Origin: a virus
Length of the DNA stretch: 51,319 nt
Strand: one strand, 5' to 3'
IMG/VR virus record: IMGVR_UViG_3300020198_000025
Coordinates: 1-51,319 of that record
Shown here: piece by piece, positions 23,970 through 43,000 of the stretch
Layout: each line of letters starts with the position of its first letter
Position numbering within the stretch: the first letter of the stretch is position 1
Made by a program: the position numbers and the translations under genes
Notes under the pieces: model-generated
What the model was told of the DNA's origin: nothing
Databases searched by the model: none
The model's input: the letters and a program-made list of their open reading frames with translations, nothing else

Positions 23970-26900
23970 AGAAGTATTAAAAACGTATACGTTTGAACAA
24001 CAACGTCAAGAAATTAATAGTTTATCCAACGATGTTGGAGACGCTGGTTCTCTTTCGACGACATCAAAAGTAATAACTCAAGCAATTAATGATGTTGTTA
24101 GTGGTGCTCAGCAATTAGTTAATGCAACATTAACTGGAGATTTAACTATCCAAGGTGGGGACATCTATCTCGACAATGCTGCCACTGATATTAAAATAAA
24201 AGATAATGTCCTAAATGCGTTATTAATCAAAGAAGGATCCAATCCATATATTAGTGTTGATACTACTGATACTACGGAATTAATTACTTTACATAAAAAT
24301 ACTCTTGTTGGTGGAAATTTAACAGTTAATGGGGACATTACTTTTAGAGCTGGACAAGGAAGTGCTGGGCAAATTACTTTAGGCGATTCAAATACTGATA
24401 ATATTGTATTTGGTGCTGATGTTAATTCCAGTATTATACCAAATACTAATAATACCTATAATTTGGGTTCATTATCCCAAATTTGGTCAAGTATTTTCTT
24501 AACAACTATTTCTGGAGGAACAAATGCGGATATTATTGTTGATCCAAATGGCACTGCTGATTTTATATTTAAAGGCGGGGTAGGGCAACAGTTTATTATT
24601 AATGATGGAACTGTAGAAAAATTTAGAATTGATAGTGAAACAGGAAGTGTTTTCTTCAGTGGTCCCATCAATGTTCCTGGTGGAATTGCATTACAAGATA
24701 ATACTGCAAATGCATTTACTATTACCGAAGGAACCAATCCATATTTCACTATTGATACAGTAAATAACGCAGAGAAAGTTACTGTTCATAAAAATCTTGA
24801 TGTTCTTGGCGATCTTTATGTTGCTGGTACAACAACCACAATTAATTCAGCGACAGTTACCGTAGATGACAAGAATATTGAATTAGGTAGTGTTGCAACT
24901 CCCACTGATATTACTGCTGACGGTGGTGGTATTACATTAAAAGCTGCTCAAGATAAAACTATTAAGTGGTTACAATCTACTAATTCTTGGGAATTCAATG
25001 TACCAACAAGAATTGAAGATGGATTAAAAATTTCTAAAAATGCAATTACAAATACCAATTCGACTGCTTCTGATATTACCGTTACTCCAGGATTAGATCG
25101 AGTTGTTATTCTTGACACTCGTGCTGGTCTCGTAATGCCCAAAGGAACTACTACGGAAAGACCTCTTACTCCAATTGCTACAGAAGGTCTTGTAAGATTC
25201 AATACCACAACAAACGAAATAGAAACATTTGTTGGAAATGAATTTACTTCTGTAACAAAACAATTTAAGTATGGTATTACTGCTCCCGCACCAACTTTAG
25301 GTAATAATGGAGATTTTTATTTTGATAAAGTAAAACAAGAATTTTATGGTCCAAAAGAAGGTAGTTCCTGGCCAGCACCTATTTGTATTAAAGAAGATAA
25401 ATCAGATAATGTAATTTATGTCTCTAAAAACGGAAGTGATACTGTTTATGATGGTTCGACTCCTGCAAAAGCATTTAAAACAATTAAGAGAGCAGCAGTA
25501 GCAGCTAGAGCAACTACTGGCAATACAACAATTAAAGTTGCTTCTGGTGATTACTTTGAAGATAATCCAATCTACTTACCAAAAGGAACTACATTAATTG
25601 GAGACAACCTTCGTGAAACTTTAATAAGACCAATTAATGACGGTGTTGATATGTTCTGGGTAACCAGTGGGTGTTATATTGCCCAACTTGTTATGAGAGA
25701 TAATTATGGAGATGTTACCAACTCAGCAGATTCTACTCGCGGTATTGGAACATTAAATGCTGGAGTAAATCCTTTTATCAGCGCAACAACGAATACATTT
25801 AATCTTTTTCCAGGGCATAATTTAAAAGAAGTTGAGGATATCTTTGGCGATGGCGCAAACATTCTTCAATACAAAAGAACTGATCTCGTAAATTATGCTT
25901 TTAATCAATTAGTTGCTGGATATCCAACTTTAGTTATTCCGCCAACTAATTTTACAGGTAATGTAACAAACGGAAATGCAATTATTACTGGAGTAACTAA
26001 CATAGGAATACTTCAAGTAGGCGAGGTTATTACTGGTGCTGGTATTCCTCCAGGAACTACAATCGTATCTGTTAATACAACAACATCTGAAATTACTATA
26101 AGTGCTCCCGTGACGGTGCCTGGAGGAGGTAGTGTAAATATTCCGTTGAGTGTTCCTGGAGCAGGAAAATGTAAGCGAGATCTTGGAGTGATTTTAGATG
26201 CAGTTATTCATGATATAAGATCAGGTGGTAACGTAAAATCAATTCAAGCGGGAGAATCGTATAGAGATGCTAACGGAAATCTCCAACACATTGTAACAGA
26301 ATTTGTACAAACCAAATATGCTATTGATCAATTGCGTTTAGCAGCAAGATTAGCTGTGATGGATGCTTCTATTATTATAGAACCAGGATTTCTTTCTCAA
26401 TATCCAGCTGTATTGGTTGGCGATTGCACAAATGTTAGAACAGCTGTAGATACTTTATTCGGTATTGTTGTTTCTATATTAGATGGTGCGGATAGTCCTG
26501 TATACAATCCAGGTCCAGGATATTTGTTGATAGATCAAGAATGGATGAAAGTTGATGATATCACTAATAATGTAGTTACAGTTTCCACAAATGGAAGAGG
26601 AGTTTCCAATCCAATTACAAATAAAGCATCTGTTGCCGCTCCCCATCCAAATGGTGCTGTTGTCACTCAGGGAGGAAGAATTTTTAGATATGCTGTTTCC
26701 TACCCTGATCAGAATGGTATTAAAGCTGCTGGAAGAATTACTTTACAGTCATCAACCTCAATTGTTCAAGGAACAAACACTAAATTTACTTCACAAACTT
26801 TTGCTGGTGGATCAATTAGAGTAGGCAATACTTCATATACTATTCTTTCTGTACAATCAGATACTCAGTTAACGCTCAGCACTGTTCCTTCTTCATCAGT

Positions 26901-29900
26901 ATCTTTAACTATCTACAAATTTATCCCACCAAAAGAAAGAATTTTCTTATCCCCCTATGTCCAAAACTGTTCCGTAATTTCTGTTCTTGGAGAAACTGAG
27001 TATAATCCAACAACTAAAGCATATGATTCACTTAAGACAAGAGGTGGCGGTCTTTTAATTGATGGTGCTAATCTTCTATCAGATACTCCATTAAAATCAA
27101 TGGTTGCTGATGCATTTACTCAAGTAGTATTCAATTCAATTGGATTCCACATGAAGAATGATGCATATTCTCAGTTGGTATCTGTTTTCCAAGTTTTTGA
27201 AGATGTTGGTGTTCTTTGTGAATCTGGTGGGTATGCTTCTGTTACTAACTCTGCTACAAACTTTGGCAACGAAGGAGTAAAAGCTATTGGTTTTAGTCCA
27301 GCAGCGTTGCCGTTTTACGCTAACGGGCGAGTTGCTGGCATTGTTAATATTACAAAAACATCTTTTGCAACAACATCATCTGGAATTCTTGGAACAACAT
27401 TTAGTTCAATACTAAGTGGAGCAAAAACACGAGTAACGGTAAAAGTATCTGCTAATGATATTAGTAAATTTGAAAGGGGTCAACTTATTACAATTGCTAA
27501 TCACACTGCTGTACCAAATATTAACGGAACTAATATAGAAATTGAAACGGTTAGATTCAGTGAAAACTTTTTTACTTTTATTTTAAATACTCCATTCCTT
27601 AGTTCATACGCACCCCCATATGCAGGAGGAACGTCTGGCAGCGTAACAGTTACCAGTGGATCCACCTTTACAAAAGTAACTGCAATTAATTTTGAAAAAG
27701 CTCCCCTCGCAAACCAAATTGTAAAAATTGATCAATTACCAGCATTGCCAGATGGAGAATATATTGTAGATGAGGTATTTGTATTTTCTCCACCAAATCT
27801 AACAAATACTTGCGAATTTAGTTTAGTACAAAAAGTTCCCAACGCAGACATTGCATTCGTTCCGAATAACGCTGCTTGCGAATTGCGTAATCCTTCAAGT
27901 GTCAATAGTTCTGGTCACACATTCGAATATGTTGGTTCTGGTGTAAATTACATGTCTCTTCCTACTAATGGTGGTAGAGCTGTCACAACAAAACAAGCAG
28001 TTGAAATTAATTCTGGTAAGTGTTATGTTTCTGCTACCGACCAAGATGGCAACTTTACGGTTGGTCCAAACTTCAATGTTGACTTAAGAACAGGTAAAGC
28101 GACATTTACTGGTGCTGTTGCTATTGGTATTCTTGATTCTTTACAATTAAAAGGGTCTCCAGGTACTCCAATTTTTGCTTTCTCTACAAATACTGATCTT
28201 GGTGGGTCGGCTGGAAGATCTGATACGGTTCTGCCCACACAAAAAGCAGTTAGAGATTTTATAGTAGATAAAGTTGGAAACTTTTTTGATTTAGACGTTG
28301 GTACTAATTCACAACCTGGCGTTGTAGTCCAGTTAGATGGTACTGGTAAAATTAATAGAGACCAAATTCCACCCCAGGAACCATTTAATGTATATGTTGT
28401 AGATACCGATGCAGAACGTTTGGTTGCTGCTATTCCAACATTATCCAAAACTGTAACTGCACATACTATTGGCAGCAATGTATTAACATTAAATAATTTG
28501 GTTGGGGTTGCAGTTGGATATGCAGTAACAGGTACAAATGTTCCTGCAAATGGATTAGTTGATGCTAAAGTAGCATCTATCAATACAGCTAATAATACTA
28601 TTACTTTGGATGTTCCTGGAGCCAATTTTACATCTCAAATTACTGGTACAGTTATAGTTAAAAATGCTACTCCATTAAAAGTTGGCGACTTTGTTGTACA
28701 AACAAATACCACCAACCCCCCTTCGAGGTCATACATTCTTTCAAGTTTGCCAGCAACCGTTAACACAGCATGGCAAGTTATTTCATCAGAACAAGTTGAT
28801 GCAAGTCAAATTGTTTCTGGTATTGTATCTCCAGCAAGATTAGGTACAAGAATCTCTAATGAGAATACATTTCTTTCTGGTCTCAGTAAGTATGTTCCTC
28901 TGCCAAAGGGTGTTAGAGCGGTTACTAACAGCATCTCAGGGCAACCTATCATTAGTCTTGGTGGTGATGGACCAACCACGGTAAAACGCACTGGAACTAA
29001 TATTGCTATTTCAAGTGCTTTCTATACTAGTGGTGGTACTCCAATATTTACTTTTAATACTGTAACTGCACATGGACTTTCAACTGGTGATTTCGTAGAA
29101 ATAGATGGTGTTTCTCCAGGTTCTTACAACGGATACTATCAAGTAACAGTTGTTAATACGACAAGAGTCACTGTTTCTGCTGCCGTAAATCCTGGTGTAT
29201 ATTCCAGCGGTGGTTTTATTACCAAAGGAGAACCATATAAAACTGGATTTTTAGATCTTGATGTTGCCATTGCTAAATTCTCAGCAGGGCAATCTGCTGG
29301 TAGCAGCGAATATGGTGTTGCAAGCTTTGACTACAATACTTTTGAAATGCTTTCTTCCACAGGATTTTCTGTTACTCTTCGAGACAAGGGCGTTTCGTTA
29401 GCAAAAATTCAAAATATTGGTCCTCGTTCTATTCTTGGTAATACATTTTATACAACACAAAATGTTGCTGAAGTACCATTAAGAGGATTTGCAGCTGAAA
29501 TTTTTGAATATGAAACTATTCCTAATGTCAGTGGTGTTTGGGAAATTAATGAATTAGTGACAGCAAGAAATTTGGGACCAAGACCACAACTTCAAATGGT
29601 TACAGGTCAGTCAATTAAATTTATTATGAAAGCATTAAATGCTGGTCATCCAATGTTTATTACTACAGTCCCTGGGCAAACTGGAACATTAGCAAACCCA
29701 CCAGCATCTGTTTATAATATTGGGGTTACTAAATTTGCAAGTAGTGTTCAAAGTAATGGATCTGGTATAGATCTTGGCGAAATAGTTGTTACAGTAACTC
29801 AAGATTCTCCATCTGTTCTTTATTACCAAGATGGTTCGGATGCATCTAATTATGGCGTTATCAATATTACTAATTTTAGAGGAACTACAGTAAATGTTTC

Positions 29901-30279
29901 TCAAACATTTTCTACTATTGCTCCAGTTGTCATTGATACTTTTTCAGCAAAAGATATCTTTACTGCCAAGTATTTAATTCAAGTTCATAATAAACTTATT
30001 GGACCAACAAACGTACAAAACCAAGAAACAAAATTTTTACACTCTACAGAACTAATGATTGTTCACGATGGTGTAGATGTTATGATTAGTGAGTATGGAA
30101 CGCTGCAAACAAAAAATCTTGGGCAGTTTACTGCAACTCTCAATAATAATATAATATCTGTTACTTATACTCCAACAGCTGTAAACGGCGTTCCTGCAGG
30201 CAATCCTGGGGGGTTCTGGAGTGGTGTTACTGATGTTATTTCAAACGCGATCAGATTGAGCAAAGATTACCTAACATAA
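23959..30279 (+). CDS. Large fibre-like virion protein with beta-helix, 2106 aa
   Basis: The protein starts MAVREVLKTYTFEQQRQEIN, a start I associate with cyanomyovirus structural proteins. Residues about 484-580 (VSKNGSDTVYDGSTPAKAFK, TIKVASGDYFEDNPIYLPKG) look like the start of a right-handed pectate-lyase-type beta-helix, continuing near 990-1100. An NHGL-type unit (TAHGLSTGDFVEIDG) is at about 1703. Near 1875-1970 a cupredoxin-like segment keeps HPMFITTVPG but lacks the usual Cys-His-Met ligands after LYYQ. The final part, from about 1990 (VVIDTFSAKDIFTAKYLIQV), resembles a C-terminal domain found on cyanophage fibres. It is probably a baseplate-attached adhesin or fibre. The start overlaps the 71-aa gene. 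Confidence 0.85.
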   Translation: MAVREVLKTYTFEQQRQEINSLSNDVGDAGSLSTTSKVITQAINDVVSGAQQLVNATLTGDLTIQGGDIYLDNAATDIKIKDNVLNALLIKEGSNPYISVDTTDTTELITLHKNTLVGGNLTVNGDITFRAGQGSAGQITLGDSNTDNIVFGADVNSSIIPNTNNTYNLGSLSQIWSSIFLTTISGGTNADIIVDPNGTADFIFKGGVGQQFIINDGTVEKFRIDSETGSVFFSGPINVPGGIALQDNTANAFTITEGTNPYFTIDTVNNAEKVTVHKNLDVLGDLYVAGTTTTINSATVTVDDKNIELGSVATPTDITADGGGITLKAAQDKTIKWLQSTNSWEFNVPTRIEDGLKISKNAITNTNSTASDITVTPGLDRVVILDTRAGLVMPKGTTTERPLTPIATEGLVRFNTTTNEIETFVGNEFTSVTKQFKYGITAPAPTLGNNGDFYFDKVKQEFYGPKEGSSWPAPICIKEDKSDNVIYVSKNGSDTVYDGSTPAKAFKTIKRAAVAARATTGNTTIKVASGDYFEDNPIYLPKGTTLIGDNLRETLIRPINDGVDMFWVTSGCYIAQLVMRDNYGDVTNSADSTRGIGTLNAGVNPFISATTNTFNLFPGHNLKEVEDIFGDGANILQYKRTDLVNYAFNQLVAGYPTLVIPPTNFTGNVTNGNAIITGVTNIGILQVGEVITGAGIPPGTTIVSVNTTTSEITISAPVTVPGGGSVNIPLSVPGAGKCKRDLGVILDAVIHDIRSGGNVKSIQAGESYRDANGNLQHIVTEFVQTKYAIDQLRLAARLAVMDASIIIEPGFLSQYPAVLVGDCTNVRTAVDTLFGIVVSILDGADSPVYNPGPGYLLIDQEWMKVDDITNNVVTVSTNGRGVSNPITNKASVAAPHPNGAVVTQGGRIFRYAVSYPDQNGIKAAGRITLQSSTSIVQGTNTKFTSQTFAGGSIRVGNTSYTILSVQSDTQLTLSTVPSSSVSLTIYKFIPPKERIFLSPYVQNCSVISVLGETEYNPTTKAYDSLKTRGGGLLIDGANLLSDTPLKSMVADAFTQVVFNSIGFHMKNDAYSQLVSVFQVFEDVGVLCESGGYASVTNSATNFGNEGVKAIGFSPAALPFYANGRVAGIVNITKTSFATTSSGILGTTFSSILSGAKTRVTVKVSANDISKFERGQLITIANHTAVPNINGTNIEIETVRFSENFFTFILNTPFLSSYAPPYAGGTSGSVTVTSGSTFTKVTAINFEKAPLANQIVKIDQLPALPDGEYIVDEVFVFSPPNLTNTCEFSLVQKVPNADIAFVPNNAACELRNPSSVNSSGHTFEYVGSGVNYMSLPTNGGRAVTTKQAVEINSGKCYVSATDQDGNFTVGPNFNVDLRTGKATFTGAVAIGILDSLQLKGSPGTPIFAFSTNTDLGGSAGRSDTVLPTQKAVRDFIVDKVGNFFDLDVGTNSQPGVVVQLDGTGKINRDQIPPQEPFNVYVVDTDAERLVAAIPTLSKTVTAHTIGSNVLTLNNLVGVAVGYAVTGTNVPANGLVDAKVASINTANNTITLDVPGANFTSQITGTVIVKNATPLKVGDFVVQTNTTNPPSRSYILSSLPATVNTAWQVISSEQVDASQIVSGIVSPARLGTRISNENTFLSGLSKYVPLPKGVRAVTNSISGQPIISLGGDGPTTVKRTGTNIAISSAFYTSGGTPIFTFNTVTAHGLSTGDFVEIDGVSPGSYNGYYQVTVVNTTRVTVSAAVNPGVYSSGGFITKGEPYKTGFLDLDVAIAKFSAGQSAGSSEYGVASFDYNTFEMLSSTGFSVTLRDKGVSLAKIQNIGPRSILGNTFYTTQNVAEVPLRGFAAEIFEYETIPNVSGVWEINELVTARNLGPRPQLQMVTGQSIKFIMKALNAGHPMFITTVPGQTGTLANPPASVYNIGVTKFASSVQSNGSGIDLGEIVVTVTQDSPSVLYYQDGSDASNYGVINITNFRGTTVNVSQTFSTIAPVVIDTFSAKDIFTAKYLIQVHNKLIGPTNVQNQETKFLHSTELMIVHDGVDVMISEYGTLQTKNLGQFTATLNNNIISVTYTPTAVNGVPAGNPGGFWSGVTDVISNAIRLSKDYLT

Positions 30280-30309: not shown

Positions 30310-30495
30310 ATGAACACCGAAACTTTACGAACTAATTTTAATAATCAATTGAAAGAAACTGAAGGTCAGCTAGCTAAACTAAAAGGCGAGTTAGAAAAAC
30401 TGGAAGAATACAAACTAAAGTTACAAGGTGGTCTTGAGACTTTAGAACTACTGTCTGCTCAAGAAAGCGAGGAAGAAACGCCTACAGCAGAATAA
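30310..30495 (+). CDS. Small coiled-coil protein, 61 aa
   Basis: Nearly the whole chain is heptad-like helix (FNNQLKETEGQLAKLKGELE, KLEEYKLKLQGGLETLELL) with an acidic, Pro/Thr-containing end. It is the last rightward gene of the baseplate block and lies directly before the bidirectional terminator. Small coiled coils of this kind occur in T4-like cyanophage structural regions and may act as fibre chaperones or trimerisation partners. No function is assigned from sequence. No good Shine-Dalgarno is visible before ATG 30310. Confidence 0.75.
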   Translation: MNTETLRTNFNNQLKETEGQLAKLKGELEKLEEYKLKLQGGLETLELLSAQESEEETPTAE

Positions 30496-30525
30496 AAAAA
30501 TAGACCCCTTACGGGGTCTTTTTTT
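30494..30525. terminator. Bidirectional intrinsic terminator between converging genes
   Basis: AGACCCC (30502-30508) pairs with GGGGTCT (30513-30519) around TTAC. On the plus strand a T-run follows (30519-30525). On the minus strand the A-run at 30494-30500 provides the T-run. It ends the rightward baseplate block and the leftward adhesin cassette, and the minus-strand stop codon abuts it. Confidence 0.9.
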
Positions 30526-30802
30526 ATCGGTTGAAATAACCTCTTGGGAATAGTTGTCCAAATCGTGGTCTGCGTCCAATAAGAAGTCCTGGAACGGCAG
30601 ATGCCTTTAGTCCTGTCACAGGAGAATCTAAATTTGCAATAGTAAAATTTTTAGAAATTGCTACATTACTAATAGTTCTTATTATTGAAGAAAATATTGG
30701 ATCAATAAATCCAGTTGCAGTAGTTTGTTTAAATTGTATTGAACTATTTACAGCAGTTGCTGCAGTTGTTGGTTGTAATCCAGATAGAGCAATGTCTGCC
30801 AT
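30524..30802 (-). CDS. Hypothetical structural protein, 92 aa
   Basis: This is the last gene of the opposite-strand cassette. It begins MADIALSGLQPTTAATAVNS and ends in a basic, aromatic tail (RRPRFGQLFPRGYFNR). The middle is beta-like and low in charge. The ATG overlaps the stop of the 768-aa gene by one base (TAATG on the minus strand), so the two are probably co-translated. GAGGA lies a little upstream of the start. Its own stop lies against the bidirectional terminator. It may be a small decoration or assembly partner of the adhesin upstream; no family is recognised. Confidence 0.72.
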   Translation of the reverse strand: MADIALSGLQPTTAATAVNSSIQFKQTTATGFIDPIFSSIIRTISNVAISKNFTIANLDSPVTGLKASAVPGLLIGRRPRFGQLFPRGYFNR

Positions 30803-33108
30803 TAGGTTGTCCTCGCTGCAAAGACCATACCAATAGAATTATTTCCAGTTACATTATCTAAACCATTTTGAGCTGTTTGATATCCAGAAATAATAATTTC
30901 ATAAATTTCAGAAGCACTTACTGTAATTGTATCTCCAGGTCTAAACTCTGTTAATCCAGGAGCAGTTGCAACTTGCAGCATAATATAATCATCTGGTAAA
31001 TAATATGGGCAAGGCAGCAGGTGATTTGAAATTGGAATACCTTTCATTGGTTTGTAGTAGTTTGCTGAAGATGATACGTATTTGTTTCTATCAGCAAAAT
31101 TTAATTGTACGTAAGCATCTAAATGGCCATCATATGTTGAATTTCTATAATAAGTAACAGTATCAGTCTGTGAATTGTTTGTATCAATATTGCATGAATA
31201 AGTAGAGGTGGGGTAAACTATATTATTAGTGTTACGAACATATCCATAATTAGCTTCTCTGGCTAATGTACGAGTGTCAACTACTTCACGTTGTAAGGAG
31301 TTGCCCCACCAAGCATTCCACCCAGGACAGAAGTAACTTGTGCTAACGTGACGACCAGTGCCCTCATATGTTGTTATTCCTCCATTCCAAACATGATTTA
31401 AATCCCAAACATTAGATCCAAAATTACTTCCTTTATGAATTGAAAATGTACCAAATGGAATTATTTCGTTATTAATTGTTTGTGTAAATTGTATTACAGC
31501 AAAATTTGTATCTTGAGGAGACTGTGCTTTATATAATCTTATAGAAAGTGGATATGCAGTTGGAGTAGAAGAAGAAGCAATATTTATATGTGAAAAATTG
31601 TTATCGTCTGTAGTAAGATAATTGTAGCTTTCTTGATAATCCAGTCCTCTATCACCACCATAAGAACCATAATCCTGATATGCGTTAAAAGCACTTGTGT
31701 TTATTCCTCTCACATTCAAAGCACGCCACATTGGTCCAGAACTAATATACATTCTATAATTATTAGAATGTAATGAAAAACCATAATAAGTGGTTCCAAA
31801 AGTTTTGGTTGCGTCGTTTACATTCTTCAGCACAGCAAAATGACCATGTAAACTTTTTTGATACATAGTGGTGCCCGCACCATAATTAGTAATAATAAGA
31901 GTACAAACCCCAGTAGCTGCATTTTGCTGTGCTGTTGTTAAACTATTAACTCCAACTAAAATATCATTAGTTCCATCAACACCACCAATAGCAGATCCTG
32001 GAATGGTGAAACTTTCATCTGTTCCCCATCCAGATCCTTTGCTGTATACTTGTATCCCAGCAACTTTATTGCGGTAGGAGCTTCCAAATTGAGATGGAAA
32101 ACGGAAAACCTTAATTTTTAATGAAGATTTACTGCCAGAAGCTGGAACAGTATATTTCCAATACGGTATAAAGTCTGAGGAATTGGAGTTTTTAATACTT
32201 GGTATAACGTTAATTACGCCTTTCATTGCAGCATTTGCTGAATTGCCATATCCATACGAAAATATTCCTGGGTTTCCAGTTCCTAAGATTTCCTCAGGGG
32301 ACATATTTTCAGATTCTGTTTGAGGCCATCCTCTCACCTGCCAAGTTACATCTGTAGTTCCTTGACCAGTTGGAAATGTTTTGTAAGTATAAGGAGCAAA
32401 GTTTGCTGTACTTAATACTCGATTTGCTGCGTATCCAGTAGAAGGACTATCAATTAAAAAGAAATTTCCGCCACTGCCAGTATCATTTACTTCAAACTTT
32501 AAAGTATCTCCTATCTCAACATCAATTTGATAATTGTTATATAAAACATTAAAAGCTCTTCTTAATGGAGTTGTATTCCAATTACCAGAAACTGCAGTGA
32601 GATTTATTGCAATTCCGTTAGTGGCATCATCTAAAGTAGCTGCTAATTTAATAGTATTACCGTCAACTTTAATAACATAATAGGTAGTATTATTGACTAA
32701 TGGTGTAATAGTTACACCAGTAGAACTACTTGGGTTCCACACTACTGGATTTCCAGTTACTAAAGTGTGTTGTGTTAATGTAAGAGTATCGTTGGCAATA
32801 CTATAATTACTTAAATACCATTGTTCTAATAAATTATACGATGAAGTTCCGTTGTTAGTTACATAAAAATATCTCTCGATTGCACTACTTTCATTAGGGG
32901 CGGGACCACCACAATATCTCCAGTTTCCATCTGTCACATCAATTGAAAAATTTCCTGGTGCTTGAAACACTACTGGAGAACCAGAAACAGCAGTTCCGCC
33001 ATTAAATCCAAGTTGACCAAACGCAATTTCTAATGCATCCAATACATGTTGACGTGTCCATCCAGTGTTTCCGTTATTAACATTAATAACTGATTTAAAA
33101 ACTGCCAT
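30802..33108 (-). CDS. Virion/adhesin protein, 768 aa
   Basis: The start (MAVFKSVINVNNGNTGWTRQ, then HVLDALEIAFGQLGFNGG) looks like a compact N-terminal attachment domain. Near residues 110-185 there is an NHGL-type unit (TQHTLVTGNPVVW, then YYVIKVDGNTIKLA), as in the 2634-aa giant. The long middle is rich in Tyr, Asn, Ser and Trp (for example NYRMYISSGPMWRALN), as in exposed receptor-binding beta domains. The C-terminus is compact (IYEIIISGYQTAQNGLDN, SIGMVFAART). GGAG lies 9 bases before the ATG. The gene starts 3 bases after the 900-aa gene and overlaps the 92-aa gene. A fibre or baseplate adhesin is the likely role. Confidence 0.78.
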   Translation of the reverse strand: MAVFKSVINVNNGNTGWTRQHVLDALEIAFGQLGFNGGTAVSGSPVVFQAPGNFSIDVTDGNWRYCGGPAPNESSAIERYFYVTNNGTSSYNLLEQWYLSNYSIANDTLTLTQHTLVTGNPVVWNPSSSTGVTITPLVNNTTYYVIKVDGNTIKLAATLDDATNGIAINLTAVSGNWNTTPLRRAFNVLYNNYQIDVEIGDTLKFEVNDTGSGGNFFLIDSPSTGYAANRVLSTANFAPYTYKTFPTGQGTTDVTWQVRGWPQTESENMSPEEILGTGNPGIFSYGYGNSANAAMKGVINVIPSIKNSNSSDFIPYWKYTVPASGSKSSLKIKVFRFPSQFGSSYRNKVAGIQVYSKGSGWGTDESFTIPGSAIGGVDGTNDILVGVNSLTTAQQNAATGVCTLIITNYGAGTTMYQKSLHGHFAVLKNVNDATKTFGTTYYGFSLHSNNYRMYISSGPMWRALNVRGINTSAFNAYQDYGSYGGDRGLDYQESYNYLTTDDNNFSHINIASSSTPTAYPLSIRLYKAQSPQDTNFAVIQFTQTINNEIIPFGTFSIHKGSNFGSNVWDLNHVWNGGITTYEGTGRHVSTSYFCPGWNAWWGNSLQREVVDTRTLAREANYGYVRNTNNIVYPTSTYSCNIDTNNSQTDTVTYYRNSTYDGHLDAYVQLNFADRNKYVSSSANYYKPMKGIPISNHLLPCPYYLPDDYIMLQVATAPGLTEFRPGDTITVSASEIYEIIISGYQTAQNGLDNVTGNNSIGMVFAARTT

Positions 33109-33111
33109 TTT

Positions 33112-35814
33112 TTATTCTCCGATCTTTAATGCTGTTAGAGTAACTGTAATTGCTGTGGAAGAAGTACTTCTGTTTGTAACAGAAAGATAAATTGTAGTTG
33201 TTCTTGGGTTGTCATTATTAAAACCTAAGATTCCAGGACTGATTAATACTGTATTTGTAACACCATCAGTTCTGATTTCACTAATTACACCGCTGCCAGC
33301 AACAGGGTCTTGACCTTCACTTCTTGTAGTATCAGCATCTCTTGATGCATCATCTGTATAAACACGAACCCATGCTTCTGCAGTGGTGGTAATCTTAAAT
33401 AACGAATAGGCTTTGTATCCTGTAATATTTAGTTCTGCCGTTGCGTCAGGAGCGAGAGAAGCAGTAGTTCCTGACAAATCTTGAATTGAAGGAACGCTCG
33501 ATGCTACAGAAGCACTCACAACTCCGTTGCCATCTATTGTCAATCCAGATCCAATTTTGATACCACCAAGAACACTTGCGGTTGCCGTTGGTAATGTATA
33601 AGATCCAGGATTTGCATTAAGAACTCCTGTTACTGGATCAATTGTTAAATTAGATCCAATCTTGACTCCACCAAGAACGGTAGTTGTTGCTATTGGTAGC
33701 GTAAATGCCGCAGGAATGGTTGGTTTGTTTTGAATGAAATCAAGTGATGCACTGTTGGTTTGATTCCAATTTGCTTGAACGGGAGCAACACTACCAATTG
33801 TAATTCTTTTGTTTCCACTATCCCAGTTGACAGTGGTTCCTGCGCTGCCTGCAATTTCAATACTATCAGTTAATCCTGTACTGGGAATTAAATTAATGAA
33901 TGCATTATTGCTAGTTGTATTGGTTCCTTGTAAATCATAAGTAATTACATTACCACCTCCGCCTCCACCTCCGCCAGTAACAACCGTATTGATTACTTTA
34001 TTTACACTATCATAAGTATAACTAATACCAACTTTACTACCATTAATAAGTGCTAACGCAGCTGCATTTTTTGCAAAATCGTCTGTATATTGAGTTACTG
34101 TTGTTGCAGGTGCTCTAAATGTAATTGTAGTTGCGTTAGTTCTTTCAACTTGCAGTCCATCAGCACCAGCAAAAGTAATATCAGTGTTACTGGTAGCAAC
34201 TCCAATTTCTTGCAATCTTAATTTTACTTGATTACCAGTTGCGGTTTCTGTACTAAAGTTATAAACTCTACCTGTCAAGGTTAGTTCATTACTGAGTTTG
34301 GATATTGTAATACCAGAAGTTGCTCTAATTGTAATATCACTTGTAGCACCACCAGAAGCAGATAATCTAAGAATTTTTCTTTCTGCGTTTTGTGCAGTAG
34401 TTCCTGAAGTATAATCTTCAACTGATGTTGAATAAGTTTGTTGAAAATTACCAATTAAGGTTTGGAAGTCTGACGTTGTGGAACTTGTGGTAGTAACAAT
34501 TCTTTGATTGGTCCAATTACTGTTATGTGCATAATATAAAGCACCACCAGATTCTGTATAAGCTACTGCTCCAGCATTAGCAGAAGCAGAAGGAAGTTCT
34601 GCTAATGTGGCATAGTAAAATGGTATTAAGTTTTTTACTTTTGGTGCAGTAATAGATCCATCATCACCAATAATTACCAATGAGTTTTGAACTTCAAGAC
34701 CAGTAGTTCCATTGAATCTTGCAAGTGCTTTATCAGTTGATGTAATTGGACCGATCATGGTCCCGCTACCAGCACCAACTCCAGATGAACCAGCTGCTGC
34801 AGGTGCCCATTGTGTACCATTCCAACGAAGGACATTACCTGTTACTGGAACAGAACTTGAAACATTGCTAAGATTTTGAAGCAGAGTTGGGATTGTTGGT
34901 TTTCCTGTAAGATCTGCATATGCTCCACTAAACAAAGTGGGTTTGTTTAAAATAGAAGAAATACCAACTGTAGAATTCCAATCAGATTGAACTTGTGCTG
35001 CAGGAATTGTAGGTTTATTTAATAAGTTATTATAGTTATTGTAATCTGTGGGAACGGGTATATTAAAATAAGTAGTGCCATCATTTGTAAATTCCCAACG
35101 GTCGCTTGTTTCATTCCAACGTAATTCGGTATCAAGTAATGTTCCCCTATTAACTATTACATTAGCATTTGATGTTGGTTGACCGACTACATTATCATTC
35201 AATACAATTTGACTGTTTTGAATATTCAGAGTTGATAAATTGTTTGTGGTAATAGTTCCAGCAACACTTAAATTTCCAGTGATAGTTGCATTAGTAAAAG
35301 TGGGTGAACTATTTTCAGATACAAAACTAACTGTTGACCATGTAGCGCCTGTTCCTGTACTGGTAAGATATTGACCAGAATTTCCAAGGGATCCATTGAT
35401 AAATAACGCACTTGTAGTTAATCCGTTTGGAAATGTTGGAGATCCAGTACCAGCAAGATTTGTTATATTATTTGTTTGGATCGAACCAGATGTAATACTA
35501 GTATTAACAACTAATGAAGAAAAAGTTTCTGCTGCATTTCTCAGCGTATAATTAGTTAGAAGTGGTGGTGTATAAGTGATAACACCAGAAGTACTGTCAT
35601 ATACTAATGATCCAGAGCCAGATGCGCCCTGTGTTGCGATGCTTATACTTGGTGGAGAGGAACCGCTACCCCCGCCGCCGCCTGTTGCAGTAGCATTAAC
35701 TCGACCATTTATAGAATCATAAGCAAAACTAATGCCACTATGAAATCCATTTACTAAAAGGTTTGCAGCGATTTTTTCAACGGTTGACCAAGGAAATTGG
35801 TTTGGTGATGGCAT
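33112..35814 (-). CDS. Tail-fibre-type protein with glycine-rich loops, 900 aa
   Basis: This is the first gene of the leftward cassette. A module of the form LxxGxxxGISfxYDSxNxxxNxxxTGGGGG occurs twice, at the N-terminus (about 19-49) and near 585-620, each ending in a poly-Gly run. NKPTIP-type fibre repeats occur several times (LLNKPTIPAA, ILNKPTLFSG, IQNKPTIPAA), as do tandem LGG(V/I)KIGSxLTID units near 715-765. The last ~125 residues (LAPDATAELNITGYKAYSLF, AWVRVYTDDASRDADTTRSE) resemble a C-terminal domain of cyanophage fibres. These features fit a trimeric adhesin for host recognition. A late-type CATAAATA lies about 30 bases upstream on the minus strand. Confidence 0.83.
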   Translation of the reverse strand: MPSPNQFPWSTVEKIAANLLVNGFHSGISFAYDSINGRVNATATGGGGGSGSSPPSISIATQGASGSGSLVYDSTSGVITYTPPLLTNYTLRNAAETFSSLVVNTSITSGSIQTNNITNLAGTGSPTFPNGLTTSALFINGSLGNSGQYLTSTGTGATWSTVSFVSENSSPTFTNATITGNLSVAGTITTNNLSTLNIQNSQIVLNDNVVGQPTSNANVIVNRGTLLDTELRWNETSDRWEFTNDGTTYFNIPVPTDYNNYNNLLNKPTIPAAQVQSDWNSTVGISSILNKPTLFSGAYADLTGKPTIPTLLQNLSNVSSSVPVTGNVLRWNGTQWAPAAAGSSGVGAGSGTMIGPITSTDKALARFNGTTGLEVQNSLVIIGDDGSITAPKVKNLIPFYYATLAELPSASANAGAVAYTESGGALYYAHNSNWTNQRIVTTTSSTTSDFQTLIGNFQQTYSTSVEDYTSGTTAQNAERKILRLSASGGATSDITIRATSGITISKLSNELTLTGRVYNFSTETATGNQVKLRLQEIGVATSNTDITFAGADGLQVERTNATTITFRAPATTVTQYTDDFAKNAAALALINGSKVGISYTYDSVNKVINTVVTGGGGGGGGNVITYDLQGTNTTSNNAFINLIPSTGLTDSIEIAGSAGTTVNWDSGNKRITIGSVAPVQANWNQTNSASLDFIQNKPTIPAAFTLPIATTTVLGGVKIGSNLTIDPVTGVLNANPGSYTLPTATASVLGGIKIGSGLTIDGNGVVSASVASSVPSIQDLSGTTASLAPDATAELNITGYKAYSLFKITTTAEAWVRVYTDDASRDADTTRSEGQDPVAGSGVISEIRTDGVTNTVLISPGILGFNNDNPRTTTIYLSVTNRSTSSTAITVTLTALKIGE

Positions 35815-35842
35815 TATATTTTCCGATATTTTTCCTAATAGA

Positions 35843-35850
35843 TATTTATG
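35843..35850 (-). promoter_or_regulatory. Late promoter for the leftward adhesin cassette (CATAAATA)
   Basis: On the minus strand the sequence reads CATAAATA, one base from TATAAATA, about 29 bases before the start of the 900-aa gene. No other promoter-like element serves the cassette. It lies 19 bases from the divergent plus-strand late promoter. Confidence 0.55.
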
Positions 35851-35868
35851 TTTTCGGATTTTTTTTCT

Positions 35869-35876
35869 TATAAATA
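35869..35876 (+). promoter_or_regulatory. Late promoter for the rightward adhesin genes (TATAAATA)
   Basis: An exact TATAAATA lies 39 bases before ATG 35916 and 19 bases from the divergent minus-strand element. It is framed by an imperfect inverted repeat (GATTTTTTTTCT 35857-35868 and AGAAAAATC 35882-35890). Confidence 0.75.
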
Positions 35877-35915: not shown

Positions 35916-36185
35916 ATGGCAACGAATGCTAAGGCGTTCGTCGTTAAAAACGGCGTCGTCGTACAAAACCAAAATAAATTAGAGTTACAAGAATTATCCA
36001 TCAATGGAGAAAATTCGGTAGCACTTAGAGCGCCATCAAACCTTTCCGCTAGCTATACATTGACACTACCATCAGATGATGGTATAGATAGACAGGTGTT
36101 ACAAACGAATGGGTCTGGAGATCTTTCGTGGGTAACACCTGTTTTTGTTGAAGATGTTTTGGCATTATCAATTGCATTAGGATAA
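35916..36185 (+). CDS. Short fibre-anchor protein, 89 aa
   Basis: The start MATNAKAFVVKNGVVVQNQN resembles the N-terminal attachment domain of long cyanophage tail fibres. Here the chain continues only through a single LTLPSDDGIDRQVLQTNGSG segment followed by LSWV, a motif common in phage fibre shafts, and then ends. It may be a short fibre, an adaptor, or the remnant of a longer fibre that lost its shaft. The Shine-Dalgarno lies in a hairpin loop flush with the ATG. One base separates the stop from the next ATG. Confidence 0.75.
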   Translation: MATNAKAFVVKNGVVVQNQNKLELQELSINGENSVALRAPSNLSASYTLTLPSDDGIDRQVLQTNGSGDLSWVTPVFVEDVLALSIALG

Positions 36186-36530: not shown

Positions 36531-38756
36531 ATGCCATACTTAGGTATAAGTCCTACAAGGACAGATAACAGAAAAATTGACACTCCACTTCAAAGAGTTA
36601 GTGGTGGTACTGGATTTAATGGATCTGAAACTCAATTTTATTTAACAATTGAGCAAGAACCAGTTTATCCAGATACCGAGCTTCTTCTCCAAGCAGTATT
36701 GAATGGTGGTCAACTAAATCCTAAAGTTGATTTTACTATTCAAAGTAATATAATTACTTTTGCTATTGCTCCTTCGCAGAATGCTATTTTCTTTGCGATT
36801 ATTGGCGACAGAATTTCCTTAAATAAACCAGGGACAGATACTGTTACTACTGGCACCATTAAAGATTCTGCAGTAACAACTGCTAAAATTGCAAATAATT
36901 CAATCACTAGCGATAAGATTGCTCCTGGTACAGTAATAGCATCTGACGTTGCTGACGGTGCTATCACGACGATTAAACTTGATGGAACTATTGGTGCTGA
37001 AGCAGTATCAACTGCTAAAATTAGAGATCTGAATATTACTACTGTTAAGATTGCAGATTCTGCGGTAACAACTATTAAACTTGCCGATGCAGCAGTAGAT
37101 TCATTAAAGTTAAGATCTAGCGTATCAACTGATGCTGATAGAGCAGTAACTACTAATCATATACGTGATTTAAATATCACTACTGCAAAACTGGCAAGCA
37201 GTGCTGTCGATTCAACTAAATTAAAAAGCAGTACTTTAGTTGATGTCGATAGAGCTGTAACGACTAATCACATTCGTGATTTAAATATCACCACAGAAAA
37301 ATTAGCTAATGATTCTGTTACTTCTGACAAAATTGCAACTTTTGCGGTAGGTAATACAGAAATTTCTAATGCATCTGTTACCCCAGAAAAAATAAATCTT
37401 ACTGTTTTAACGGATCCATTAAATCCCGCTGATGGACAATTAATTTATAATACGTTTACAAATGCTCCCAAAATTTACAATCAAACTGCAAGCAAATGGG
37501 AAGAACTTTTAACACAATCAACTGCGGGTAGTCTTGTTGGTTCGACATTTATTGCTGCAATTCCAACTTCACTTTCTCCATTTACTGAAAGAAATACACA
37601 AGTTACTCCAGAAACTACAATAAAAAGTTATGCTTTTAATGATAGTATATTTGTTCCAAGACACGTTGTTGTCACAAATGGGGGTAAAATTTCGTCTTCA
37701 GCTAATTTAATTTCTTGGACAGCAAGAACATCAGGGACTGCTAATGATTTAAATTCCGTTTCTTGGAGCGGATCCTATTTCTTTGCTGGAGGAAATGCAA
37801 ATACTATATGCACTTCTTCAAATGCAGAAAGTTGGACTACTTCTGTTGGTCCTTTTGCATCCAGTACTAATATTACTACAACATTTTCTGCAAATGGTAA
37901 TGTCTTAATTGGTGGATCTAATGGAGAAATCGCAGGCGGTCTTCCATTTACATTAAGAAATAGTAATTTATCTTCTTCTATTACATCATTTGCATATAAT
38001 AATAATGTATATGTTGCTGGTGGATCTCAAGGAGATATTTCTTCTTCGGTTGATATTACTGCTTGGACTCAAAGATTAAACGGTGGTGGATCAAACAAAG
38101 TTTACTTGCAACCATTTGGAACTGGTTTTATAGCAGTAATTGATAATCAAACAAGTAATGATGTAACTATTAAAACGTCAACGAATGGAATTACTTGGGT
38201 AGATCTCATTATTAATCCACCAAATGTGCAAACTGTAAAATCTTTTAGATATTTTCCAGTAACTCAAGCTTATTTGATTGTTGATCAAAATGGAAATACT
38301 TTAAGATCTTCAAATGGAAAAGATTGGGCGATTTTCAATCAACCATCATTTGATATCAATACAAGTATTTCTATTAATGATTTTAATTATGCTCAACAAG
38401 GCGGTGTCCAATACTTTGTAATGATGGGTACAAAAAATGTTAGTGGAACTCTCTCACCATATTTTGTTACCGCAACATTTAATACAACAAACAATCAACT
38501 TGAGTCGAATAAAAATTATATCATTGATACATCATATGGTTTAGTTACTGTTAATTTACCATCAAATCCAAATGTAGGAGATACTGTTAGATTAGCTGAT
38601 GGAGGAAATACTTGGGGCACAGCAAATGCTGTGGTTAATGCAAACAATAAATCATTCTTGGTTAGTACAGGTAGTATAGATAATGTATTAATTCTTGATT
38701 ATTCTGGAGTGAATATTGATTTAATATGGACAGGTTCATATTGGAGGGTTTACTAA
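36531..38756 (+). CDS. Repeat-rich tail fibre with Asp-box-like motifs, 741 aa
   Basis: Domains in order: an N-terminal part with a DGVLQ-like unit (LLQAVLNGGQLNPKVDF, about 50-66); residues about 104-290 built of short repeats of the type (A/N)(V/I)TTxK(I/L)A, probably a trimeric beta shaft; a segment (about 387-643) with recurring SSNxxxW motifs (SSNAESWT, SSVDITAWT, STNGITWV, SSNGKDWA) resembling Asp-box beta-propeller blades; and a C-terminal domain (NYIIDTSYGLVTVNLPSNP to SYWRVY) typical of cyanophage fibres. A direct repeat of about 111 bp lies in the shaft. GGAG lies in the loop of a 4-bp hairpin (36515-36530) flush with the ATG. A sugar-binding adhesin is the likely role. Confidence 0.83.
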   Translation: MPYLGISPTRTDNRKIDTPLQRVSGGTGFNGSETQFYLTIEQEPVYPDTELLLQAVLNGGQLNPKVDFTIQSNIITFAIAPSQNAIFFAIIGDRISLNKPGTDTVTTGTIKDSAVTTAKIANNSITSDKIAPGTVIASDVADGAITTIKLDGTIGAEAVSTAKIRDLNITTVKIADSAVTTIKLADAAVDSLKLRSSVSTDADRAVTTNHIRDLNITTAKLASSAVDSTKLKSSTLVDVDRAVTTNHIRDLNITTEKLANDSVTSDKIATFAVGNTEISNASVTPEKINLTVLTDPLNPADGQLIYNTFTNAPKIYNQTASKWEELLTQSTAGSLVGSTFIAAIPTSLSPFTERNTQVTPETTIKSYAFNDSIFVPRHVVVTNGGKISSSANLISWTARTSGTANDLNSVSWSGSYFFAGGNANTICTSSNAESWTTSVGPFASSTNITTTFSANGNVLIGGSNGEIAGGLPFTLRNSNLSSSITSFAYNNNVYVAGGSQGDISSSVDITAWTQRLNGGGSNKVYLQPFGTGFIAVIDNQTSNDVTIKTSTNGITWVDLIINPPNVQTVKSFRYFPVTQAYLIVDQNGNTLRSSNGKDWAIFNQPSFDINTSISINDFNYAQQGGVQYFVMMGTKNVSGTLSPYFVTATFNTTNNQLESNKNYIIDTSYGLVTVNLPSNPNVGDTVRLADGGNTWGTANAVVNANNKSFLVSTGSIDNVLILDYSGVNIDLIWTGSYWRVY

Positions 38757-38757
38757 A

Positions 38758-39132
38758 ATGCCAATTAATTTAAGCAATTTAATATCAACAGGTTCTGGAT
38801 CAGGAACTAACATTTATGATTTTCATGCTTTAAAAAGAACTTCAGATGGTATGCTGATCTATACCTTAGAAGATACTCTTTCGAATACAGTCATTAATGT
38901 ATTCAATCAACCCACAAATAACGTATTTGCATCTCTTAACGAAGATTATACTACTGCATTACCTGCTGGTCGTGCTAAAAATAATATTAACGGCATGGGA
39001 GATTTAAATAGTGCTAATGATAAATACCAACAGTATAGATTTGAAAACAAAAAAGTGAGATATTTTATTGATGATGATGGTTATATGGTCGCAAGACTAA
39101 ACGCAAATTTTTCTTACTCAGGTCCAAAATAA
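38758..39132 (+). CDS. Hypothetical virion protein, 124 aa
   Basis: The N-terminus (MPINLSNLISTGSGSGTN) is flexible and Gly/Ser-rich. The chain then has DFHALKRTSDGMLIYTLED and a C-terminal RYFIDDDGYMVARLNANFSY that looks like a beta hairpin. One base separates it from the repeat-rich fibre, and the CBM-like gene follows after 12 bases, so co-expression is likely. The family is not recognised; its placement suggests an adhesin-associated structural protein. Confidence 0.72.
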   Translation: MPINLSNLISTGSGSGTNIYDFHALKRTSDGMLIYTLEDTLSNTVINVFNQPTNNVFASLNEDYTTALPAGRAKNNINGMGDLNSANDKYQQYRFENKKVRYFIDDDGYMVARLNANFSYSGPK

Positions 39133-39144
39133 TAGGAAACTAAA

Positions 39145-40044
39145 ATGGCAGATTTCAGATTAGGTAGATTAAAATTTAATTGGAGAGGCAGTTGGAGTGC
39201 TACAACAGCTTTCGAAATTGATGATATCGTGAAGTTTGGTGGTAACACATATGTTTGTGTTGCCAACCACACATCTGCCGCTTCTGAAGCGGCATTTTAT
39301 ACTGATGATCTTGGCGCAACTCCAACAAGATGGAATGTTCACGTTCCTGGTTACGAAGTAAAAGGAACATGGATAGCAAGTTATTTTTACAAACTAAATG
39401 ATCTTGTTACCTATGGTAACACAATTTATGTTTGCACAACTCAACACGCTTCAGGTAGCACATTCGATGCTACAAAATTCTCAACATATCTGGAAGGATT
39501 AAAGTTTGAGGATACTTGGAATAGTACAACAGAATATCAAAAAGGAGATATTGTATCCTATGGCGGTTATACATTTACCGCAAAAACAATAAACACAAAT
39601 GTTGTTCCAGGATCAAATGCAACCGATTGGGGTCTTTTAATCAAGGGGTTATTCCCCCAAGGAGCTTGGTCTGGATTAACGGCATATAAAGCAGGTGATG
39701 TAGTTCAGTATGGTGGGTCATTATATGTCGCAATATCTGCTAGCACAAATGTAAAACCTTCGTCAGATGTAACTAAATGGACATTTATGCAGTCTGGTCT
39801 CAAATGGAGAGGCAACTGGAGTGCAGTTACTGATTATAACATCGGTGAACTTGTATATAAGGGTGCAAGTGCTTGGATAAATATTCAAGAATACACAATT
39901 GCTCAAGGTGGTGCAAGAGATCCCGAACAAGCGCCTGCTTTCTGGGACCTTTTTGCTCAAGGTGATAACACCACCAACGTTTCGGGACAAATCGCTGCAG
40001 TTAAGGCGGCAGCTTTAACATTTTCGCTAACATTCGGATTCTAA
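39145..40044 (+). CDS. Five-repeat CBM5/12-like protein, 299 aa
   Basis: Five units of about 50 residues carry the pattern W(R/E/I)GxWxxxxxYxxxDxVxYGGxxYV (for example WRGSWSATTAFEIDDIVKFG, VKGTWIASYFYKLNDLVTYG, WSGLTAYKAGDVVQYGGSLY). This is the core of chitin-binding type-3 / CBM5/12 modules, which bind polysaccharide through exposed aromatics. The short C-terminal tail (SGQIAAVKAAALTFSLTFGF) is hydrophobic and may anchor the protein. A fair AGGAAA Shine-Dalgarno lies before ATG 39145. The protein probably helps reversible binding to cell-surface glycans. One extra unit of the same type lies in the 2634-aa protein next door. Confidence 0.83.
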   Translation: MADFRLGRLKFNWRGSWSATTAFEIDDIVKFGGNTYVCVANHTSAASEAAFYTDDLGATPTRWNVHVPGYEVKGTWIASYFYKLNDLVTYGNTIYVCTTQHASGSTFDATKFSTYLEGLKFEDTWNSTTEYQKGDIVSYGGYTFTAKTINTNVVPGSNATDWGLLIKGLFPQGAWSGLTAYKAGDVVQYGGSLYVAISASTNVKPSSDVTKWTFMQSGLKWRGNWSAVTDYNIGELVYKGASAWINIQEYTIAQGGARDPEQAPAFWDLFAQGDNTTNVSGQIAAVKAAALTFSLTFGF

Positions 40045-40068: not shown

Positions 40069-43000
40069 ATGGCAAGAAAATTAGCATTTGACTACACATT
40101 TAACAAAGCTGCCAAGCAGATTATACTAAATGGTAACGTCAATTTCAAGAGATTACTCTTGATCAACAACGCAACCGCTAACATTGTTATCTACAATGTT
40201 GGTGATCCAGCACTAAAAGCTACGTCTGTTAATTACAATCCATCAACAGACCAAACAACTGTTACTCTAAATTATGACACCACTGGAATGAATAACAGTG
40301 ATGTTCTTCAAATTTTTACAGAGCAAGATGGTGTAGAAATTAAACCTGTTGATACTCTTTTAGATCCTGTATCAAAATTCCGTGTATCGGAACCAAACAC
40401 TCTGATCGATACCGATTTTGAGTATGGTCTACAAGCAACAAAATGGGAAACTCTAGAAAGAGTTAATAATATTCCAGGATATTATTCAATTACTGGCGAC
40501 ACCCCTCTCACCAACATTGCTGATGTTACTACAAACGGTACTAAAATTGTAACGGTAACTTGTACATCACCCCATGGTCTAACAACTGGTATTCCTATTG
40601 ATGTTCGTGGTCTTGACAGTATTACTGCCGAGGGAACATTCCTTGTTCGCAAGACAACAGATCTTTCTTTCACTTACGAAACCAGAACAGTTCAACCAGG
40701 AAGCGCATCAGTACCAGTAAGTATTAATACTGCTTATGTGACTGTTACAACGGGGCGCTTTTATGTACAATCCCAAATTCCTTTTGATAACAGCGCATCT
40801 GTAGATGAAGGTCCAGTTGTAACTAATGGCGCAAACGTTAGTACTTTAACAGTAACTACTCCATATAAGCATGGTTTCAAAGTCAATTCTCCTTTCTATT
40901 TAACAAATACTTTATCAAATTCTAAAGTACCATTTTCTGCTGGTTCAATTACTAATGGTGGCAGCGTAGAGGATAGAATCTCGTATTCTTTGGATACTGG
41001 AAACTTTAACCCATATGAACCATTCCACGATGGTACAAAACTTCGTGTATTAATCAATGCACTGGATGCTATTTCAGTAGCAAATGATACTATTACCATT
41101 CCTGATCACCAATTGGTAACTGGAGACCCTATTGCATATCTCGGATCAACTGGCGCTCATCCTACAATCAACGCAGTAACAACAGGAAGATTTAATGTTG
41201 CCGCTGGACAACTACCAGTTTACAATATTGGTACTGGTAGTGCAGCAGCTTCATATTTTTATGCCGTTGTTATTGACGCCGATACTATTAAATTAGCTAC
41301 CAACCCACAAAATGCATATAATGGTGATGTACTAGTTGATTTCAACAGTGCTGGTAGTGGCAATTTAACTTTCTCGTTATTTAGTTCCAGAGGTTATGAG
41401 ATTCAGCAAAGTATTAGCACAATTCAAACCGTAAATGGTCAATCTGAAATTAAAGTTACCTTTAATGGAAGAACCAACAAACAGATGCATGTATATCCTG
41501 AGCGTCAAATTACTTTGAGTGATACTAATATTCCTGGTTTGGATGGTGTTTATGTAGTTAAATCATCTCCTGTTGCAGCAGCTTTTGCAAGTCAGAATTG
41601 GAGAGAAACTGATACCTTCTTTATTATGGAAGGACCATCAAGCAGCAATGGAGCGGCGTTTGTTAATCAAACTGTTTCAGCAACATATACATTGAATGGC
41701 AATGCTGCAGCAATTAATGCTCCTTTAAGAACTAAAAATTACGAATATACTTTTAGTCCTACAATTTCTGGAGCATCTGGCGCTACTCTAACTGTAAGTG
41801 CCCTATCAAATCTTGGTGATGGAGACCTTCCAACTCGTGTGGGATCTGTAGTTAGATTTACAAATGTAGGTTCTCTTACTGGCGTAACAGCAAATACAAA
41901 TTATTTTGTTTCTGCAGTAACATCTACTTCTATCACACTATCGTCAACCAACCCAGTTCTTTCAGTAACTCCTATTGTATTTGGCGGAACAGTTGGTGCG
42001 GCTACCATTAAAGTATTCCGTTCTGGTGTCCGTGCTCAGGTTCATGATGGAGCTTCATCTTGGATGAATCATACTCGTGTATCTGTTCACGATTGGTGTT
42101 CAATTACAGGTAAAATGTTTACCCGTGAGTGTGTTTCTTCCGATAGAATTTTCATCAAAAACCACGGTTTGTCGTTAGGTACTCCAATTATATTTGTTGG
42201 CGGTGGTAATACTTGGACTGGAGGAGCTACAGCACCAGTGGAATCTGCCAACCAATCGATAATTTATTATGCTGATGTAATCAACAAAGACGAAATTTCT
42301 TTAAAGAACGCAGAGAGTATATCTGGAGTTGGTCCTTATTCTGGATCAGCGACTGGAGCAACTATCAATTTTTCTACTGCTAACACTTGGGCTGGGGGAA
42401 TTTATCAACTGCACCCAGGATTTGCTATTAGTAGTTTCTCACTAGCTGGTGGTGGATCTGGTGGGGGTCGAGATCGTGTCATTGGTTCATACGCAAACTT
42501 ACCTGCGTATATGACAGAAGATGCTGAAATTATTATAAAAAATGGAACTGGATCTGGTCTTCCAGGCGGTGTCCAGCAAACTCCAAATACATATACAGAA
42601 TATCAAAAATATTATGCAAGAACTCTTGTAAATAGTGGTCCAATTTCATCTGCTTGTGAATTTTCACTCACTCTTTCCGAAGCTGGTTCACCAGTTCACT
42701 TTACTACTAACTCAACCAACGGGGCGGGTCGTTTTATCTGTTGTCGTATTTCCGAAAATAGATTCTCGAATAGTTTCTTCTTGCCAAATCATGGTGGTAT
42801 TACTGGTCAAAGAACCACTTATAGTATTACTGGTTCCTTTACTAATGGCACTCGTGATGAACAAGCTATTTTCCCATCAACTGCAGGATTCCCTGGACCT
42901 TTATTTGATTATGTAACTGACATTACTGGCGTTAACTGGCCTAGAGTCAACATGATTTTGACTCATCCTACAGGTACACTCAATGGTTTATCCACTGCAG

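Follow-up and report, generated by a model that had tools for sequence, protein, structure and literature searches.

In T-even phages, the tip of the long tail fibre reportedly consists of gp37 with the adhesin gp38, as Trojet et al. 2011 are said to have described. Gp38 has a conserved attachment part and a hypervariable part. For T4-like cyanophages, tail fiber proteins have been referred to as 'missing' (PMC2984593), and in pelagimyophages and cyanomyophages the stretch from VrlC to gp14 is known as the host recognition cluster (PMC7029224). Metaviromic islands with fibre genes are already known (PMC3909814), and mobile gene cassettes have been found at variable positions in cyanomyoviruses, some of them near psbA and one class of them with a plasmid-stability protein (PMC3037559). 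Here, we analysed an antisense gene cassette in a 51.3-kb record of a marine cyanobacterial virus (IMG/VR record IMGVR_UViG_3300020198_000025, positions 1 to 51,319; this whole stretch is called the window below). Three open reading frames (ORFs) of 900, 768 and 92 aa, named C900, C768 and C92, lie on the - strand and span 30524-35814, against rightward neighbours (genes 23959-30279, 30310-30495 and all from 35916 on are on the + strand). An ORF check returned exactly the coordinates given in a preliminary description of this DNA and confirmed the strands and sizes of the three co-oriented genes, which run against all surrounding ones as it had claimed. On the basis of the results presented here, we consider with a probability of roughly two in three that the segment represents a T4-like cyanophage's tail-tip module, which is self-contained and placed antisense in the late structural region. 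In this module the C-terminal domain of C900 (CTD) would be the socket onto which C768 fits as a variable host-binding tip, and C92 would supply a conserved tail peptide helping docking or assembly. Elsewhere, this socket would be paired with a subtilisin-like protease bearing a similar tail in cis.

Comparison with known systems

The cassette lies between a gp8-like gene (13730-15553, phrog_438, E 3e-153) and the gp13/gp14 region (head-tail adaptor, at the gp13 position, at 48056; head closure Hc2 at 48868), and the gene content there varies between related genomes. The location thus corresponds to the host recognition cluster, with which it shares the part of the genome, the variable gene content and the presence of tail-fibre genes. 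However, the available text on that cluster describes neither an antisense late-promoter unit nor a rule linking the CTD to its partner genes (PMC7029224), and cassettes of the window type also occur beside talC/psbA, outside the cluster. As to the mobile cyanomyovirus cassettes, a plasmid-stability protein is likewise found near the tail-tip module in phage ACG-2014i, but those cassettes carry metabolic, LPS (lipopolysaccharide) or hypothetical genes, and no tail-tip cassette is described in the available part of that report (PMC3037559). Four features presented below appear to be new, since no description of them was found in the open-access literature searched: the antisense tip unit, the rule for CTD partners, the tail common to both partner families and the apparent purging of octamers from the antisense strand.

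The gene order resembles that of T-even gp37/gp38, in which the shaft gene stands directly before the tip gene; here, C900 and the putative tip gene C768 are separated by 3 nt. The unit would work like this shaft-plus-adhesin pair, by analogy and without shown sequence kinship: no gp37/gp38 family was detected in Pfam and PHROGs scans (E 0.01), no direct profile comparison with gp37/gp38 having been made. C768 is also much larger than gp38, and, unlike the T-even pair, the window has a third small gene that carries the tail.

The C-terminal domain of C900 and its partner genes

C900 matched phrog_9729 (tail fiber protein, E 7e-19) as well as phrog_15343 and phrog_9627, and its gene contains an internal repeat (72% over 79 nt). 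Both results bear out the repeat-bearing fibre of the preliminary description. The 'fibre-type' label given there to the C-terminal domain, for which no Pfam match was found, is based on PHROGs and gene context. The CTD was predicted to be a small jelly roll with a predicted local distance difference test (pLDDT) value of 94.2. A sequence search of the PDB gave three weak matches only (E 0.5-0.9), and the Foldseek PDB matches of the CTD were discarded as evidence.

Over all loci we collected 133 distinct CTD sequences, 132 of which were located at the extreme C-terminus of their protein. The gene after the CTD belonged to the C768 family in 71 cases and encoded a subtilisin-like protease in 52; eight CTDs were at a contig end, and the 2 remaining partners, first classified as 'other', proved by their N-terminus to be C768 fragments. 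A C768 family member or a protease was therefore found after the CTD in 125/125 distinct determinable cases. Similar results were obtained by a search with the CTD alone, which was not selected for C768 and in which the best 80 of at least 592 matches were kept, the far end being beyond its scope: C768 in 43 cases, protease in 32, contig end in 8 and no other partner (75/75 determinable). In six phage records lacking a C768 match, the CTD was followed by a protease-family gene according to alignment, and Pfam Peptidase_S8 was present in all three protease-family members tested. In the reverse direction, a CTD was located upstream of C768 in 82/87 distinct cases that had an upstream gene (the other five were later copies in paired arrays) and upstream of the protease in 63/68.

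We propose more tentatively, at somewhat less than even odds, that a single interchangeable CTD socket may accept two otherwise unrelated plugs, either C768 with C92 or the protease, and that the adhesin form is an autonomous antisense late operon. Both plugs would bear a cupredoxin-like domain and, in cis or in trans, the RP..G..[FY]PR tail as their marks. The operon could occupy different loci because its own promoter and terminator come along, in genomes from which antisense late promoters are otherwise purged. This socket-and-plug rule is the most useful outcome of the analysis. The pairing rule offers a means of locating the fibre end and the tip gene in genomes in which both are annotated merely as hypothetical; it also predicts a physical contact between the CTD and its partner, open to structure and gene-removal tests.

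Marks shared by C768, C92 and the protease

The structure model of C768 (pLDDT 91.4) contains a cupredoxin-like fold (Z 8.5, root-mean-square deviation 3.5 over 99 residues), which is just above the background of 7-8. With C768, no PDB match was obtained by Foldseek at E 0.001 or better or by sequence search. C768 and the protease could be aligned in the cupredoxin-like domain only (hhalign probability 93.7). A type-1-copper-like motif (C..H..M) was present in 23/29 distinct S8 proteases and in 10/84 distinct C768 sequences (L003, L004, L007, L078, L087 and L092-L096), 9 of them with an upstream His; the type-1 copper ligand motif has been lost in the window's C768.

The protease family ends in a tail like RP..G..[FY]PR, whereas C768 has no such tail. 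Instead, the gene after C768 carried it in 88/91 cases, including C92 of the window; the exceptions were two gene-calling artefacts and one variant. The start of C92 overlaps the C768 stop by 1 nt, and the same stop/start overlap was observed for 83/88 tail genes. Among 1675 other genes the tail occurred in 13, of which 12 were labelled protease and one S_wedge (best BLAST hit). The 91 cases are what remained of 93 rows after dropping the window protein 40069-47973 and its S-BM3 counterpart, for which the C768 profile matched solely via the inserted repeat. Also excluded from the count were 45 duplicate pairs and 7 genes that were not followed by a complete gene. Since the protease carries the tail itself and the next gene carries it for C768, we infer that RP..G..[FY]PR may be a common docking tail, supplied in cis by the protease and in trans by C92. 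In L038, L044, L045 and L065, the C768 gene and the small tail gene are tandemly duplicated; the pair is suggested to form one unit.

Transcription signals of the antisense unit

The preliminary description had claimed a divergent late promoter of the cassette's own and a shared bidirectional terminator, and sequence signals for both were found (Table 1). The octamer NATAAATA has been reported as the late octamer of S-PM2 (PMC2984593). In the window, it precedes the antisense unit as CATAAATA at promoter distance, as in a T4-like late transcription unit, and is divergent from a rightward TATAAATA; both octamers were conserved in 8/8 loci with a visible junction, L011 among them. The terminator hairpin was retained in 8/9 rows and lost in L011. 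Neither the hairpin nor the antisense octamer was present at the empty site L015 (see below). Late RNA polymerase would transcribe C900, C768 and C92 together. An octamer was located 15-60 nt upstream of 6/23 + strand starts, compared with 0.2 expected and no more than 2 in 200 Markov sequences; the first antisense gene was also preceded by an octamer at this distance, which occurred by chance in 2/200. The terminator scan was uninformative on its own (4 terminator-like sites vs 3.6 expected), and a sigma-70 promoter scan was discarded as evidence (28 sites vs 25.5 expected).

The window contains 2 antisense octamers compared with 13.1 expected from synonymous-codon shuffles (none of 300 was as low), and one of the 2 is the cassette promoter; this promoter is thus not a matter of chance. 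Of the 21 anagrams of the late-promoter core ATAAATA, the core itself showed the strongest depletion on the antisense strand (z -4.1). Fourteen loci together had 17 antisense octamers vs about 102 expected, in a count that includes the window and six lineage relatives, and is therefore non-independent, and that relies on crude gene calls. In L009, L011, L012 and L014, the sole antisense octamer in 19-22 kb was the cassette promoter, which was verified at the junction in L011 and through gene arithmetic in the other three; the empty-site contig L015 had no antisense octamer (8.7 expected). It is as if antisense late promoters were purged in these genomes.

Presence, location and orientation in related phages

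A search with the C-terminal portion of the 2106-aa protein encoded upstream identified 9 loci with 8 full-length relatives. The antisense cassette was present in seven of the eight and absent from L015 (68% identical), in which the left and right flanking genes are separated solely by a rightward TATAAATA. Querying with the 110-aa right-hand gene as well, which yielded 11 loci, added L214, which has a 100% identical C768 and is nearly the same virus, and L215, L216 and L220, in which the C900 end lies antisense beside the same right flank (only this end being visible). Counting these, 11 IMG/VR contigs besides the window have the cassette antisense at this position, and all lineage contigs with the cassette had the same orientation. 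The antisense fibre of L220 at this site has 1583 aa vs about 900, so that fibre length varies within the lineage. No C768 could be found in ten distant loci with both the 61-aa gene and gp13 visible (L182, L187, L188, L189, L191, L192, L208, L209, L210 and L212).

The wider family was examined in 87 loci, comprising the best 80 of 216 relatives of the 768-aa protein, the window and six phage records, near-copies included. The genes were located in the late region on the same strand as their neighbours in 27 loci and on the opposite strand in 9, on the talC/psbA side in 24 and 2, respectively, and on the helicase side in 4; the context of 21 was undetermined. In S-BM3, the homologues lie in sense between genes annotated as gp8 and gp13. 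The GenBank records of S-BM3, ACG-2014i, S-H9-1 and Sf-CH1b have the order found in the window, that is, a CTD-ending fibre, a C768 family member and a small protein, but these genes are on the strand of their neighbours, are at another locus in 3/4 and are annotated merely as tail fiber-like or hypothetical.

In a quick tree of 74 rows (support by SH-aLRT, the Shimodaira-Hasegawa-like approximate likelihood ratio test, 99-100), the late-region opposite-strand rows formed one clade (100), whose sister was L033 (99), antisense beside psbA. Hence, the antisense form is one branch of the family, present at two loci. L033 and L040 have TATAAATA 38-39 nt upstream of the fibre, and L033 has a strong hairpin between the end of the unit and a convergent ferredoxin gene. 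The tree required 7 context changes vs 26 in shuffles, which indicates that moves are rare rather than constant. The preliminary description had proposed an exchangeable module and named a gene order and orientation conserved in all relatives as evidence to the contrary. What we observed were antisense (11 contigs), empty (L015) and sense (S-BM3) forms and others near talC/psbA. Because it is absent, in sense or relocated in relatives, the cassette is a movable, self-contained unit, and its antisense form illustrates how such a tip module could be accommodated at different sites independently of neighbouring transcription.

Sequence variability and gene trees

Identity within the lineage was compared at 7 loci for ten neighbouring genes. 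C768 and C92 were the most divergent of the ten (mean identity 70.4% and 72.7%, respectively), compared with 84.1% for C900 and 75.7-92.8% for the seven flanking genes. Variability within C768 is concentrated in one stretch of its middle (Table 1), and the first 40 residues and residues 681-760 are 80-89% identical. The CTD, with 89-94% identity, is the most conserved part of C900. The N-terminal variability of C900 (46%) was not used, as a start-codon artefact in L011 inflates the value. The conserved ends of C768, the conserved socket and the variable middle fit a tip adhesin. Relatives of C768 in S-SCSM1, a phage with 45 virion proteins determined by mass spectrometry (PMC9602691), are annotated as virion protein. 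From these sequence comparisons, a role of the module in host range may be inferred.

The C900 tree followed the backbone (100/100; alternative rejected), whereas the C768 tree grouped differently (95/96). Recombination seems to be common across this late region, and cassette exchange inside the close lineage is weakly supported.

Alternative explanations

One could suppose that C768 and C92 are fibre assembly factors, such as a chaperone or cap, and that the CTD itself binds the host. Fibre genes are often followed immediately by the gene for their chaperone (in T4, gp37 folds with the help of gp38; PMC6957217), and the compact jelly roll predicted for the CTD is a fold frequently employed in binding. 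However, it is the CTD that is the most conserved part of C900 and C768 that holds the hypervariable stretch; relatives of C768 are annotated as virion proteins, and the other partner of the CTD, a large subtilisin-like protease, does not resemble a chaperone. We regard this explanation as improbable. A shade less probable still is that a chance insertion left the cassette antisense as a neutral relic and that its genes are ordinary tail genes inherited vertically in this lineage, as might be supposed from the fixed orientation in the lineage, a C900 that follows the backbone tree and the single empty site. The module is movable across the family, and the antisense arrangement appears to be maintained because both octamers and the hairpin are conserved while antisense octamers are otherwise purged. 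An invertible switch for phase variation, flipping within one virus, is very hard to credit and was rejected: sense and antisense placements both occur in the family, but no pair of inverted repeats marks the boundaries (even the longest pairs match imperfectly, with 74% over 27 nt, and are located within genes), a scan of nine proteins from the cassette and its flanks revealed no recombinase, and all cassette-holding lineage contigs have one orientation, the antisense clade being a separate branch.

Several observations weigh against the tail-tip module with a CTD socket and a C768 tip. The fold matches of the CTD were generic jelly rolls with Z at most 7.2 and included no confident relative. 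Allele exchange of C768 is borderline, with a P value of 0.0498 for the backbone grouping in the approximately unbiased test (p-AU), and the trees of 36531-38756 and 39145-40044 were also discordant with that of the upstream 2106-aa protein. Gain and loss of the cassette are indistinguishable, as just one empty site sharing the right flank was identified. In addition, sense copies often bear a late octamer too (14/23 near talC/psbA and 12/21 in the late region), so that the promoter does not set the antisense form apart. On balance, the preliminary description is partly supported: it was right on modularity, the host-range function it proposed is putative and the unit is not a switch.

Table 1. 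Positions of the antisense unit, its signals and its flanks in the window
Feature	Position	Strand	Basis
C900, tail-fibre shaft gene, first of the antisense unit	33112..35814	-	ORF; PHROGs match
CTD, last ~130 residues of C900, proposed docking end	33112..33504	-	Conserved domain; predicted jelly roll; partner rule
C768, proposed tip adhesin, second gene	30802..33108	-	ORF; structure model; most divergent neighbour
Cupredoxin-like domain of C768, residues 73-308, with inserted repeat domain at about 100-190	32185..32892	-	Z 8.5; shared repeat; hhalign
Most variable part of C768, residues 561-680	31069..31428	-	Identity 41-55% in lineage
C92, small protein with C-terminal conserved tail GRRPRFGQLFPRGYFNR, third gene	30524..30802	-	ORF
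Late-promoter octamer CATAAATA of the antisense unit, 36 nt upstream of the C900 start	35843..35850	-	
Divergent late-promoter octamer TATAAATA of rightward genes, 47 nt before the next gene	35869..35876	+	
Bidirectional terminator hairpin, 7 bp, T runs on both sides, between convergent genes	30502..30519	.	
Left flank, 61-aa gene (phrog_580)	30310..30495	+	
Right flank, 89-aa gene	35916..36185	+	
Segment present or absent between otherwise syntenic relatives	30496..35868	.	Empty site L015

Other genes of the window

The flanks of the cassette consist of baseplate and neck genes, including a sheath stabiliser and the small terminase. No match was obtained by megablast of the cassette region against phages or by Rfam and tRNA scans. 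An HlyE match of 38758-39132 was rejected because it was weak and below its cut-off. The repeat domain inserted into the cupredoxin-like domain of C768 recurs about five times in the 2634-aa protein 40069-47973. A YHYH domain (Pfam E 1.5e-32) was identified in the 2985-aa protein 4719-13676, and the 299-aa protein 39145-40044 has four CBM_5_12 carbohydrate-binding stretches and matches a PHROG tail fiber family.

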